NCBI GenBank assembly: GCA_024239075.1
Contig: JANBVI010000069.1
Location: 1 to 64,000, forward strand
Direction: 5' to 3'
DNA: 64,000 nt
Source of the DNA: Fischerella sp. CENA71
GTDB lineage: Bacteria > Cyanobacteriota > Cyanobacteriia > Cyanobacteriales > Nostocaceae
This document shows positions 11,894 to 14,823 of this stretch, in pieces. A program made the position numbers and the translations under genes. Under the pieces are notes generated by a model that saw nothing but the letters and a program-made list of their open reading frames with translations, did not search any database and was not told the origin of the DNA. Within the stretch, counting starts at the first letter, position 1, and each line of letters begins with the position of its first letter.

Positions 11894-11923
11894 TTGACAT
11901 TTTTTGTAGTACGCAAGTAGTAT
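11894..11923 (+). promoter_or_regulatory. Predicted promoter of the Ro/Y-RNA operon with a direct repeat
   Basis: TTGACA at 11894-11899 is a perfect -35 hexamer and TAGTAT at 11918-11923 a good -10, with an 18-base spacer. GTAGTA occurs at 11906-11911 and again at 11917-11922, 11 bases apart, so one copy lies in the spacer and the other over the -10. A regulator binding both half-sites on one face of the helix would block RNA polymerase; that is inference. The next gene starts 73 bases after the -10. Confidence 0.6.
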
Positions 11924-11995
11924 AGAAATAACAACAAACAAGTTAAATAAACACAAAAAGTTTACCTCCCAAAAATATATAAAGGAGGTTGTAGT

Positions 11996-12196
11996 ATGGT
12001 TCATATTCGCTTTGAAGGTCGTTCCTATGATGTGAGCGAGTCGCAACTAGGCTTAAGAGCTAACATGAATGACACAGCTATTAAGCAGCGACTAGCCCAA
12101 CATTTTGATGTACAATTAAACCGCTTTGAATCTTACGTAATTGATCGTAGACCAAGTGGAGATTTAATAGTAAGACCAGAAGCAGTTTACGGATAA
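11996..12196 (+). CDS. 66-residue protein of unknown function, first gene of the Ro/Y-RNA locus
   Basis: The start is secure: AAAGGAGG at 11980-11987 gives a strong ribosome site eight bases before ATG. The small soluble protein begins [19 protein letters not shown] and ends [21 protein letters not shown]. The alternation suggests a compact alpha/beta fold: a strand pair, a helix ([13 protein letters not shown]) and a C-terminal strand pair. I recall similar small cyanobacterial proteins but no assigned function. Its stop lies 14 bases before the first Y-RNA-like element, and it shares a transcript direction with the Ro gene. A role in the ribonucleoprotein is a guess from position only. Confidence 0.8.
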
Positions 12197-12210
12197 AAAA
12201 TAAATTTTTG

Positions 12211-12319
12211 TTCCGCATCCTAACAAGTTAAGCTTACATACCTACAACCTCCACCAAATGGGGGTCTAGCCAAAAAGGTTAGGCAAAACATGTGAACAGC
12301 TTTGCTAACTTGTGCGGGA
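12211..12319 (+). ncRNA. Y-RNA-like RNA 1
   Basis: The ends TTCCGCA (12211-12217) and TGCGGGA (12313-12319) pair over 7 positions. A 5' bulge TCCTAA follows, then a perfect CAAGTTA/TAACTTG helix, then the conserved GCTTACATAC segment. The interior holds two hairpins, CCTCC/GGGGG with a 7-base loop and CTAGCC/GGTTAG with loop AAAAA. The closed stem, the 5' CCTAACA and 3' ACTTG strands flanking the inner helix, and the position upstream of a Ro60 gene identify it as a Y-RNA-type molecule. No full tRNA-like fold is evident in this copy. Confidence 0.75.
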
Positions 12320-12347
12320 CACTATAATTCCCGATTATTAAATAATT

Positions 12348-12474
12348 CACTCCGCGCCCTAACAGGAAAAGCTTACATACTAGCCAAATGGAAAAGGCGC
12401 TTGATTACGGCTCAAGATTATACAGGTTCAAATCCTGTGTATGAACAAACAGCTTTTTCAACTTGCGCGGAGTG
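12348..12474 (+). ncRNA. Y-RNA-like RNA 2 with tRNA-like domain (YrlA-type)
   Basis: A 10-bp perfect outer stem, CACTCCGCGC (12348-12357) with GCGCGGAGTG (12465-12474), encloses an internal loop (5' CCTAACA, 3' AACTT) and an inner helix GGAAAAGCT/AGCTTTTTC. The distal part folds as a tRNA: CATAC/GTATG acceptor-like stem (12376-12380, 12439-12443), D arm GCC/GGC, anticodon arm CTTGA/TCAAG with 7-base loop TTACGGC (anticodon-position ACG), and T arm ACAGG/CCTGT with loop TTCAAAT. There is no free 3' CCA end, since the acceptor stem continues into the Y stem. Bacterial YrlA RNAs are known to combine a Ro-binding stem with a tRNA-like module. Confidence 0.88.
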
Positions 12475-12492
12475 ACCTATAAATCATCAATA

Positions 12493-12939
12493 ATGAGTCA
12501 TGAAAACGGCAAATACCAGAAAGTTCATGAAATCGAAATTCTTGTAACTACATTCCAAAATTGCAGCTTACCACGATGTCAGTGGAATCATCTTGCACAT
12601 TTGACAGTGGCATTATATTACCTCATATATTACGGGGAAAAACAAGCAGGCGAGCGCATTCGCCAAGATATCCAACGCTATAACGCAGCTATGGGTATCC
12701 AAACCACCAAAGATAGTGGTTATCACGAAACTCTTACCCAGTTCTGGGTTTATATAGTGCGTCATTATTTATCGGTGAACCAACAGCAAACCTCTCTGTT
12801 GCAGCTAACTAATGGACTCATTGATAGTTACGGTAATAAGCATCTACCACTGCAATACTACAGCCGGGATTTATTGACGTCCTGGGAGGCTAGAAATAGT
12901 TGGGTTGAACCAGATTTGCAACATCTTGACATTCTTTAG
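12493..12939 (+). CDS. 148-residue protein of unknown function between Y RNAs
   Basis: I start at ATG 12493, because an upstream TTG at 12463 lies inside the preceding RNA's stem. The protein has [18 protein letters not shown] near residues 30-47 and [10 protein letters not shown] near 75-84. I recall a widespread uncharacterised bacterial family with the same W-x-H-x-x-H-L and YHET motifs and a C-terminal YSRDxLxSxEAR; the histidines and glutamate could bind a metal, which is inference. It lies between Y-RNA 2 (19 bases upstream) and Y-RNA 3 (7 bases downstream), so it should be on the same transcript as the Ro gene. Confidence 0.82.
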
Positions 12940-12945
12940 TAATTG

Positions 12946-13052
12946 TTGCCGTACCCTAATCGCGGAAGCTTACATACTCCTATTTAAGCAAAAAAACAGA
13001 GTCTACGTCTGAAGCCGTCTTCAGGCTTATGCTTCCTCTACTTGTGCGGCAA
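12946..13052 (+). ncRNA. Y-RNA-like RNA 3
   Basis: TTGCCGTAC (12946-12954) pairs with GTGCGGCAA (13044-13052) over 9 positions including one G-U. The inner helix is GGAAGC/GCTTCC, separated from the outer one by 5' CCTAATCGC and 3' TCTACTT. The same GCTTACATAC segment follows the inner helix. The interior is not tRNA-like; it has a hairpin CTGAAG-CCGT-CTTCAG (13009-13024). Stem sequences differ from the other copies while pairing is kept, which supports a real RNA structure. Confidence 0.75.
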
Positions 13053-13116
13053 TTTTAATACTATGTCTAAATGTATAATTTGGCATCCAAGCTTATTGCA
13101 GTTATAACAGTAGTTG

Positions 13117-13241
13117 TCACCGCGCCCTCACAGAAAAAGCTTACATACTAGCTCAATTGGTAGAGCAGTCGGCTATTAACTGATGGGTAACAGGTTCAAT
13201 TCCTGTGTATAAACCAACAGCTTTCTCAACTTGCGCGGTGA
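13117..13241 (+). ncRNA. Y-RNA-like RNA 4 with tRNA-Asn-like domain (YrlA-type)
   Basis: Outer stem TCACCGCGC/GCGCGGTGA (13117-13125, 13233-13241), loop strands CCTCACA and AACTT, and inner helix GAAAAAGCT/AGCTTTCTC with one mismatch. The distal part is a tRNA mimic: D arm GCTC/GAGC with loop AATTGGTA, anticodon arm GTCGG/CTGAT with 7-base loop CTATTAA (13173-13179), T arm ACAGG/CCTGT with loop TTCAATT. The D arm and anticodon loop resemble bacterial tRNA-Asn, but the anticodon position reads ATT where tRNA-Asn has GTT. It ends 116 bases before the Ro start codon. It cannot act as a tRNA because it has no free 3' end at the acceptor stem. Confidence 0.88.
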
Positions 13242-13357
13242 TTTTATTCACCTCGTAGTGTGTGACAACTACACTCCACGGTTTTAGATTTTGGTTGCAA
13301 TTAAAAAATCCAAAATCCCAAATCTAAAATCCAAAATTCCTAATGGAGGTAGTACCC

Positions 13358-14791
13358 ATGAATACAGCAGAACGCGACTTGCGTTTAGAACTTCTCAACA
13401 GCTTGCTAACTACGCCTCACCGCGAGTTGGAGACGGTAGCAGAATTCCACAAATTAGTCATAGAACTTGACCCCATTTTTTACGGACATCTAGCTGTATG
13501 GTATCAACGCAATGGTGATGTCCGCGATCACAAGGAAGTTTTTTTGGGACATCTACTGACAAGCAATGTGACTGCACATCGTGATGCTGGTTTTATATTG
13601 CTACAAGAGTTTCCACCTTATCAAGTGGCGCGGATTGTGGACTTTATGAAGCAGCAACGCGGTAAAGTTCCCCGTTCTGCACGTACTGCTGTGCAACGCT
13701 ATTTGCGATCGCGAGAACTCAATCCCCAGTTTTTTGATCGCGCCGCTTTACGGGGACGTAAGGCGATGAAGCATCTCTATGCAACTTTGCATATTAAACC
13801 AAGTATGCGTGCAGATGCGGTGTTGTTCAAAAATACGCCACCAGAAGATAGCTTGGCTTATATTCTCAAACAGCTGGCAAAAGCAGAAACAACATCTGCA
13901 CAAGCAGCTTTAATTGTTGAGCATAACATTCCTTACACTATTGCCATTGGTGCAGTTAAGCAACTTACCCCAAGTATTTTGGTGGCGTTGATTAACTCCA
14001 TGTCACCGCAGGAGGTAATTAACAACCTCAAATCTCTGAAGCAACGCGGTGCGATGGATCACCCTGAAGTCAAGGCGTTGATTGATGAGAAGTTAGAACA
14101 AGCGGCTAAGAGTGACAGGATATCTGCGTTCAAAGCTACAGTTGCTGCTGATGTTACCCAACTGGATACAGAAACTGCGGCACGACTGGAAAAAGTCGCC
14201 AACGAACAAGTTAAAAAGCGCGGTAAAATTGCCAAGCCAACTGCTTTGTTGGTTGATAAGTCTGGAAGTATGGATGTCGCGCTAGAAGTCGGTAAGCAAA
14301 TAGCTGCGTTGATTTCTGGTATTACTGAAGCAAACTTGTTTGTTTATGCTTTCGACACCATTGCTTATTCAGTTAAAGCTACTGGTAGTCAACTATCAGA
14401 CTGGGAAAAGGCATTTCACCATATTTTCCCCAACGGTGGAACTAGTATTGGTGCGGGGTTAGAAACCATGCGCCTGAAAAAGCAGGTAGTAGAACAAATC
14501 ATCATCGTCACCGACGAAGGCGAAAACACCCAACCCTACTTTGCGTCTGCTTATCAAGCTTATCAGCGCGATTTGGGAGTTATGCCAAATGTGATTATTG
14601 TCAGAGTTGGAGGCTGGTGTGATTACATTGAACGCAATTTGAAGGAGAAGCAAATACCTGTGGACACCTTCACTTTTGCAGGAGACTACTACTCTTTGCC
14701 AAATTTGGTGCCGTTGTTGTCTCGTTCATCCCGACTAGAATTGCTGATGGAGATTTTAGATACAGTACTACCTGTGCGGGATGACAAGTAA
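13358..14791 (+). CDS. rsr: Ro60/TROVE-vWA RNA-binding protein (Rsr-type)
   Basis: The 477-residue protein has an N-terminal helical repeat region (about 1-270), as in the TROVE ring that binds Y RNA and misfolded RNA ends, and a C-terminal vWA domain (about 290-470) with a full MIDAS: DKSGSM, threonine in GGTSIGAG, and aspartate in VTDEGEN. Bacterial Ro (Rsr) partners Y RNA and, in Deinococcus, PNPase in RNA maturation and decay. GGAGGT at 13345-13350 places the start at 13358, not at the in-frame ATG 13343, which lies just before the ribosome site. Four Y-RNA-like genes precede it, and a 13-bp hairpin follows. N-terminal sequence match to TROVE is judged by pattern only; the RNA neighbours raise confidence. 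Confidence 0.9.
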
Positions 14792-14794
14792 ATC

Positions 14795-14823
14795 AATATC
14801 TAGCAGCATAGCTGCTAGATATT
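14795..14823 (+). terminator. Strong hairpin ending the Ro operon
   Basis: A 13-bp perfect stem AATATCTAGCAGC (14795-14807) and GCTGCTAGATATT (14811-14823) with loop ATA begins four bases after the Ro stop codon. It lacks a long T run but also serves the convergent rpsU gene by position, so a two-way stop or an mRNA-stabilising end is likely. Confidence 0.7.

Follow-up and report, generated by a model that had tools for sequence, protein, structure and literature searches.

The closest described counterparts of the locus analysed here are the Rsr/YrlA particles of Deinococcus radiodurans and Salmonella (RYPER). The stem of YrlA holds the Ro protein Rsr and its tRNA-like head holds PNPase, according to the accessible part of the source (PMC8394870). 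In the rsr-yrlBA-rtcBA operon with RtcR, as far as the accessible text of the report describes it, a Ro protein and Y RNAs are tied to damaged tRNA and to RNA repair (PMC7790460). Ro proteins, Y RNAs and tRNA-like heads of Y RNAs are already known. The subject of this analysis is an array of four Y-like RNAs beside a divergent Ro60-fold protein in the cyanobacterium Fischerella sp. CENA71 (assembly GCA_024239075.1, contig JANBVI010000069.1). The array occupies positions 11894–14823 of the window, by which the whole analysed stretch of 64,000 nucleotides (nt) is meant. All of its elements lie on the + strand, and the sequence and the layout of open reading frames (ORFs) bear out the order and the single strand proposed in an earlier sequence-only reading of this DNA.

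The locus shares with the Rsr/YrlA particles a Ro60-fold protein, an adjoining Y-type RNA gene and a tRNA-mimic head, and class B heads of its relatives match the YrlA model below the gathering score. It differs from them in that its Ro protein has no TROVE match, the RNAs of the window have no YrlA match, and rtcBA is absent from the ten window proteins scanned. Furthermore, the main tRNA head is in the normal order and attached by the acceptor arm instead of being permuted, there are many RNAs per locus, and relatives have heads that mimic rRNA. The rsr-yrlBA-rtcBA operon has in common with the locus the Ro protein, the Y RNAs and the tie to RNA repair; by contrast, control here is apparently TrcR-like and not by RtcR, and rtcB of Anabaena is a separate TrcR target in the accessible part of the report on that regulator (PMC10272220). 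As far as the literature was searched, heads made of a tRNA in the usual order and joined through the acceptor arm, arrays of up to ten RNAs with exchangeable heads, and 23S-like heads are new. No report of Y RNAs with 23S rRNA heads was found in the literature search, from which subscription literature was largely out of reach, so that priority is not established.

Four RNAs on a conserved Ro-type stem

The four RNAs, RNA1 (12210–12320), RNA2 (12347–12475), RNA3 (12943–13056) and RNA4 (13115–13243), precede the Ro gene (13358–14791). They share a stem in which a lower and an upper helix flank an internal loop, CCYNAY-like on its 5′ strand and ACUUG on its 3′ strand, with a UACA box beyond the upper helix. 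The folding z-scores of RNA1 to RNA4 against shuffled sequences are −2.5, −2.4, −4.0 and −3.7, respectively. A motif scanner detected the four RNAs on the + strand of the window and none on the − strand, and it gave no match when all the sequence scanned was dinucleotide-shuffled five times; its minus-strand matches in relatives fit loci that were taken in reverse orientation. The 5′ motif with two or fewer mismatches occurs exactly four times in the 7.47-Mb genome, always at this locus.

Relatives were collected with a peptide-pattern scan of one genome per species from 84,980 species, a method that picks up close relatives only. The scan yielded 52 loci (numbered L below, with genomes numbered G), which are cyanobacterial by title save for single metagenome-assembled genomes of Acidobacteria, Chlorobiota and Armatimonadetes. 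A weight-matrix scan of these loci and the window identified 227 RNAs on the strand of the Ro gene and none on the opposite strand. Because the matrix was trained on the matches of the first motif scan, its count depends in part on the earlier one; the controls are the minus strand and the shuffles. Both helices of the stem covary across 196 distinct RNAs. Pair 6–26 is formed in 185 of the 196 (shuffled mean 93), with 95 two-sided changes, and pair 22–12 of the upper helix in 167 of the 196 (shuffled mean 89), with 86 two-sided changes; the RNAs are related sequences and not independent, and they were selected on the seven innermost lower pairs, with the upper helix and the outer lower pairs outside the selection. 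The covariation and the strand bias support the earlier proposal of Y-RNA-like genes beside, and co-oriented with, a Ro60-fold protein. That reading also took the four-copy array for an uncommon expansion, which finds no support: 49 of the 52 loci of this Ro branch carry one to ten RNAs, most commonly five. The other three are L040, with one candidate in the first scan, and L045 and L047, in which the sequence starts close upstream of the Ro gene.

A divergent Ro60-fold protein with a patchy distribution

The Ro gene encodes a divergent protein of 477 residues, for which a Ro60 fold is predicted, with a ring of helical repeats and a C-terminal vWA domain. The earlier identification of a Ro/TROVE-vWA protein agrees with the predicted fold; the sequence, however, gives no match to the Pfam TROVE family (PF05731). 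A canonical rsr is therefore ruled out by sequence and retained by predicted fold. The vWA_Ro60 model (PF25045) is reached by 7 of 30 homologues (best 1.6e-05), and the window protein is not among them. Ro proteins of Fischerella are 94–97% identical to that of the window.

Co-occurrence of the protein and the RNAs was determined in an even draw of 194 cyanobacterial genomes, the genome of the window included. The Ro gene is present in 16 of the 194, which marks it as a patchy branch. The Y 5′ motif with at most one mismatch is present in 15 genomes, comprising 14 of the 16 Ro-positive and one of the 178 Ro-negative genomes, and the same motif read backwards as a control occurs once in the 194 genomes (G024). 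Both Ro-positive genomes without the motif, G125 and G167, have partial Ro matches, and the motif of the sole Ro-negative genome that has it, G062, belongs to one of the RNAs with a sarcin-ricin loop (SRL) described below. Ro genes that are partial or contain a stop were observed in G074, G125 and G167.

The RNAs could be decayed pieces of tRNA and rRNA genes that were caught by a repeat-like stem and have no function. Some heads are indeed shortened or have small hairpins inserted in the T-loop, and a few genomes have Ro genes that are partial or contain stops. Such an origin is hardly credible, because both stem helices covary, all the RNAs lie on one strand, and the Ro gene and the Y motif co-occur, with the motif being absent where Ro is partial (G125, G167).

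Collections of plasmids and phages contain two plasmids and one phage with relatives of the Ro protein. The 122-kb viral contig L069, with a Ro protein 49% identical to that of the window, carries a gene of the type of the 66-residue protein described below, three Y-like RNAs and a fourth that is tRNA-like, the Ro gene and a ThiF gene. The 595-kb uncultured phage L070 (LR756511.1; Ro 48% identical) carries a 66-residue-type gene whose product ends in RPDAIFG, two weaker Y-like matches, the Ro gene and a JAB gene. At L004, a long CRISPR array with CRISPR-DR5 repeats (6268–9949) lies 3′ of the Ro locus on the opposite strand.

Heads that mimic tRNA

The heads of RNA2 and RNA4 are complete tRNA-like structures, a likeness absent from the earlier reading. 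The tRNA model RF00005 matches RNA2 with 48.7 bits (E 2.3e-07) and RNA4 with 45.8 bits (E 1.4e-06) in cmscan, and ARAGORN agrees. The cores of the two heads, at 12374–12446 and 13142–13215, have all of the D, anticodon and T arms and are joined to the stem via the acceptor arm. Neither RNA has a free CCA acceptor end, because the acceptor strands continue into the Y stem. The YrlA model (RF02553), by contrast, gives no match for any of the four window RNAs up to E 10. The covariance search, which the earlier reading had named as a test, thus has a mixed outcome: it supports tRNA for RNA2 and RNA4 and not YrlA within the window, and the YrlA matches of the class B heads in relatives remain below the gathering score.

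Heads were classified for 228 RNAs from a slightly tuned scan, a few of which are composite calls (L017_2838, L043_3034); classes beyond the ARAGORN calls are pattern-based and approximate. ARAGORN called a tRNA in normal order in 86 of the 228 heads, which join the stem through their acceptor arm (class A), and in 17 more only after circular rotation, 16 of them counted in class B; another 20 heads are like class B by pattern. In a control with one shuffle of each head, 0 of 228 were called tRNA, straight or rotated. All 86 heads have the T-loop motif, 83 have a purine at position 37, 82 have a seven-nucleotide anticodon loop and 80 keep U33, figures that are upper estimates because ARAGORN itself selects for part of these features. 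The anticodons are scattered, with ATT, CTA and TTA among them. The lack of a free acceptor end and the scattered anticodons rule out real tRNA genes.

Read from their sequences, the class B heads have the order T arm, closed acceptor stem and D arm, which is the arrangement of YrlA. They match the YrlA model with up to 46.1 bits (E 3.9e-07), compared with a gathering score of 69 and a noise level marked by a 25.5-bit match inside the tRNA array of L041. RNA1 has two hairpins on its Ro-type stem, one closed and acceptor-like and the other resembling a D arm, and ARAGORN finds no tRNA in this RNA, straight or rotated. When compared with the RNAs at L002:4163 and L019:3814, its head looks like a shortened permuted tRNA of the YrlA type, that is, a class B head minus arms. 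Hairpin-forming repeats (for example GGTACCC...GGGAAC) are inserted in the T-loop of the tRNA-like heads at L002:4163, L007:1109, L010:442 and L017:2327.

The alternation of ORFs with tRNA-like heads, and the large tRNA arrays that adjoin some of the loci, would suit heads that act as punctuation, at which RNase P and RNase Z cut the operon transcript. Cuts at the tRNA ends would, however, destroy the conserved stem around the heads, and most of the RNAs have other heads, including rRNA copies without tRNA ends. A role in processing is for these reasons quite unlikely.

Heads that copy 23S rRNA sites

Two classes of heads in relatives resemble functional sites of 23S rRNA. Heads of the SRL+GAC class contain the sarcin-ricin dodecamer AGTACGAGAGGA (nt 2584 of the own 23S rRNA), followed by the L11/GTPase centre (GAC). 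They match nt 1054–1133 of the own 23S rRNA in blastn with E-values down to 2e-11. In cmscan, the RNA of L028 passes the gathering score of the large-subunit rRNA model (50) with 52.1 bits (E 4.9e-12), and that of L031 narrowly misses it with 49.8 bits (E 9.5e-14). The fold has two-sided changes in 16 of 56 pairs in eight sequences (alignment A4, which holds eight of the nine SRL+GAC RNAs of the first 52 loci, with L030 excluded). The tuned scan found eight of these RNAs among its 228, and the ninth (L035), missed there, was found by the motif scan and blastn. The RNA lies 3′ of the Ro gene in all nine carrier loci among the first 52, and it is also found behind Ro on a Kovacikia plasmid. RNAs of the SRL class were also detected off the Ro contig, at L102 (G060:C23), L105 (G060:C19), L096 (G129:C7) and L095 (G062:C32), the last in a genome without a Ro gene of this branch.

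The second class (class D, 14 of the 228 RNAs) contains AACGGTCCTAAGGTAGCGAAATT, a 27-nt match to nt 1845–1870 of 23S rRNA (blastn E 3e-6, uncorrected for 204 queries). This segment comprises what we take to be helices H69 and H70/71. In the ten of the 14 RNAs that were aligned (alignment A3), the H69 stem is re-formed and a shortened H71 hairpin is present; from the sequences, the Y stem seems to be placed in the loop of H69. Class D as a copy of a full 23S domain was rejected. Since the 3′ half is unsupported and cmscan is empty, the claim is limited to the H69 stem and the H70/71 strand.

The remaining heads of the census comprise 36 short, 30 unclassified, eight class R3, seven class E and three class A by pattern only. 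Class E heads are conserved around CTGCAAGCCTGAGACCGATAGCAGGC and occur at L013, L029, L031, L037, L039, L042 and L052; their cmscan matches are at chance level, and three examples are unlike the own rRNA or RNase P RNA. The hairpin head of RNA3, the R3 representative of the window, has no likeness above shuffles to the own 16S, 23S, 5S or RNase P RNA. Class E, class R3, class G (L031) and the two-hairpin head of L012 were considered as mimics of rRNA or RNase P RNA and do not rise above shuffles, whereas the class C and D controls stood out. A search for tmRNA in the own genome gave no match and, because its control also responded only weakly, carries no weight.

TrcR-like operators at the promoter

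TrcR of Anabaena is a ribbon-helix-helix repressor whose 8-bp site overlaps or lies close to the −10 box of the genes it controls. The genes it represses include trn, rtcB and rsgA, and elongation-inhibiting antibiotics lift this repression. At the trn operon of Anabaena PCC 7120, which encodes 26 tRNAs, the site is TGTAGTAT and lies over a TAGTAT −10 box (all in the accessible part of PMC10272220).

The window locus begins with a promoter-like element, TTGACA and TAGTAT separated by 18 nt (11894–11923). The consensus match alone proves nothing, because the region has eight matches and shuffled sequences have a mean of 7.2. The element contains two octamers, TGTAGTAC (11905–11912) and AGTAGTAT (11916–11923), which start eleven bases apart and each differ from TGTAGTAT by one mismatch; AGTAGTAT overlaps the −10 box. 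Upstream of the gene for the 66-residue protein, the exact octamer is present in 9 of 38 loci, as opposed to 2.2% of random 250-nt stretches; when one mismatch is allowed, the figures are 15 of 38 and 10.5%. The exact octamer is also directly upstream of six of the nine SRL+GAC RNAs, and two exact copies precede the SRL-class RNA of L105. In the own genome, the published trcR operator lies 31 nt 5′ of an ORF of 111 residues (L081:1550-1882, contig C53), the ribbon-helix-helix match of which is weak (PF13467, E 0.057). The ORF is divergent from an HNH endonuclease gene (L081:633-1163).

Judged by these sequences, the operon appears to be controlled by TrcR-like operators and not by RtcR. Because such operators lie at its promoter, a block of translation elongation probably switches it on. 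At L029, L031, L037, L041, L052 and L071 (the Kovacikia plasmid), the Ro-Y locus is directly preceded on its own strand by an array of about 20–31 tRNA genes, and the Y RNAs are interspersed with the tRNA genes or follow them. The tRNA arrays at these six loci, the operator-like octamer over a TAGTAT −10 box and the tRNA-like RNAs recall the trn operon, within the accessible description of the latter. The trn operon encodes ordinary tRNAs; by contrast, the tRNA copies here are locked on a Ro-type stem without a free acceptor end, and the octamers of the window are each one mismatch away from that of trn.

Proteins encoded with the RNAs

The first ORF of the locus (11996–12196) encodes a protein of 66 residues with the C-terminus RPEAVYG. 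Besides the window, its cluster spans 37 of the 52 loci; the RPEAVYG end is invariant in the 31 aligned sequences. The predicted structure has the order β-β-α-β-β (pLDDT 89), and its similarity to folds in the PDB is weak (best E 0.18). It is possible that the protein is ubiquitin-like, given the beta-grasp-like topology of the model. The ORF between RNA2 and RNA3 (12493–12939) encodes a protein of 148 residues; it keeps its position in relatives, and its cluster includes the window and 18 of the 52 loci. Neither protein has a Pfam or NCBIfam match.

Relatives of the locus encode further proteins. A ThiF-type E1 is present at 7 of the 52 loci (PF00899, 1.5e-27, one example scanned) and absent from the ten window proteins scanned, the JAB gene of the L070 phage cassette matches PF14464 (8.2e-08), and a protein without a known family occurs at 9 of the 52 loci. 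The small protein with an invariant C-terminal glycine, the E1 and the JAB gene recall PRTRC-type and other bacterial cassettes of ubiquitin-like, E1 and JAB proteins. The locus differs from such cassettes, because the 66-residue protein has no family match, the PRTRC models score far under their cut-offs, and the window locus has neither E1 nor JAB.

Paralogues of ribosomal protein L7/L12 are encoded at 19 of the 52 loci (PF00542, 1.1e-23, one example scanned, above the curated cut-off) and paralogues of EF-Ts at 7 of the 52 (TIGR00116, 188 bits, cut-off 104, one example scanned). As seen at L028:4194-4574, L007:6600-7202 and in relatives, the genes lie within or directly behind the Ro-Y array. 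The tRNA, SRL+GAC, L7/L12 and EF-Ts parts that are copied at these loci are all partners of EF-Tu. Because relatives carry the L7/L12 and EF-Ts copies, the particles could form a ribosome-free site at which EF-Tu and other translational GTPases are held back or checked under stress. Such a trap would suit the presence of GAC and SRL within one RNA and the joint occurrence of L7/L12 and SRL+GAC at L027, L028, L030, L031, L034 and L035. However, no locus combines EF-Ts with an SRL+GAC RNA (flanks of up to 5 kb), neither the H69-71 class nor the closed acceptor ends suit EF-Tu, and the window locus lacks L7/L12 and EF-Ts. A trap for factors is considered improbable.

A strong palindromic hairpin (14795–14823) follows the Ro gene and is possibly the end of the transcript. 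The earlier description of it as strong stands; it has no T run and is not among the terminators of the consensus scan. Two genes farther downstream, at 15657–16484 and 18366–19568, encode another vWA protein (VWA_4, 4.3e-14) and an ATPase of the AAA type. No rtcBA was found among the ten window proteins given a family scan.

Function of the array

The anatomy of the array is strongly supported. The stem covaries, many heads can be identified, the protein has a predicted Ro60 fold, and matches to the operator are present. From these observations we infer Ro binding, induction and a function as bait. The constant stem would dock each RNA on the Ro60-type protein, and the head would be interchangeable, in many of the RNAs copying some component of the translation machinery. 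The heads of the window are two complete mimics of tRNA, one that looks like a shortened permuted tRNA, and one hairpin, to which relatives add 23S sites. The operon would probably be induced by blocked translation elongation, like the gene of the RNA ligase RtcB and the spare tRNA operon in Anabaena. Enzymes or factors that act on tRNA and the functional sites of 23S rRNA, whether by attacking, cutting or handling them, would then recognise the heads and would be held on Ro or titrated by it. The 23S sites that are copied are targets of ribotoxins and translation factors. The array may thus encode stress-induced Ro particles in which heads that mimic the translation machinery serve as bait, an interpretation that is put forward tentatively, at slightly less than even confidence. 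Bait is favoured because the anticodon loops are kept without identity, the 23S sites are copied, and the promoter looks stress-controlled.

In an extended and more doubtful form of the bait interpretation, the loci would hold libraries of translation mimics, comprising two tRNA topologies, SRL+GAC, H69-71, L7/L12 and EF-Ts. Induced through TrcR, these would act as bait or sensors for ribotoxins, antibiotic damage or phage attack, possibly reporting via a ubiquitin-like/E1/JAB pathway that is also present in huge phages.

Heads could instead be handles, as in RYPER, each recruiting a processing enzyme whose usual ligand is tRNA or rRNA (PNPase, maturation or modification enzymes, or RtcB), with Ro feeding different damaged RNAs to decay or repair. 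In the accessible parts of the sources, YrlA links PNPase to Rsr, and it is a substrate of the modifying enzymes DusA and TruB (PMC8394870, PMC8058203); rtcB belongs to the TrcR regulon (PMC10272220). The YrlA-model scores of the class B heads, 46.1 bits (E 3.9e-07) at most, point in the same direction. However, the docking of decay enzymes leaves unexplained the kept anticodon loops, the SRL, GAC and H69-71 heads, and the L7/L12 and EF-Ts paralogues, and PNPase is not among the scanned ORF clusters, in which no search aimed at it was made. Taken by itself, docking is rather doubtful; bait is judged the most likely function on this analysis, and docking nearly as likely.

Several observations weigh against the bait interpretation. 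The YrlA precedent, in the accessible part of its source, is a docking head for PNPase and not a bait (PMC8394870). About one-third of the 228 heads, those that are short, unclassified, R3 or class E, have no assigned identity. In 10 of 10 sequences of the H69-71 class, the 3′ half resembles 23S rRNA no better than shuffles do, and cmscan gives no match for the class. Some RNAs of the tRNA type also have weak blastn matches to 23S rRNA, with E-values of 1e-4 and above, which are taken as chance, so that only stronger matches count. No rRNA-mimic RNA was found in the own genome by the 5′ motif, and the mimics of the window are of the tRNA type only. In 23 of the 38 loci the octamer TGTAGTAT is absent within one mismatch, and the operator counts are not independent because several loci are from close Fischerella-type relatives. 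Two further viral contigs, L067 and L068, have Ro relatives in which Y RNAs were undetected.

Implications for Ro particles

What Ro particles and Y RNAs do is a question that reaches from bacteria to humans. That copies of tRNA and of 23S sites share one Ro-type stem suggests a head that determines the partner, and it points to candidates for that partner. The operator matches tie Ro to a known regulator of translational stress and to tRNA arrays. The question of what Ro particles do thereby becomes testable in culturable cyanobacteria.

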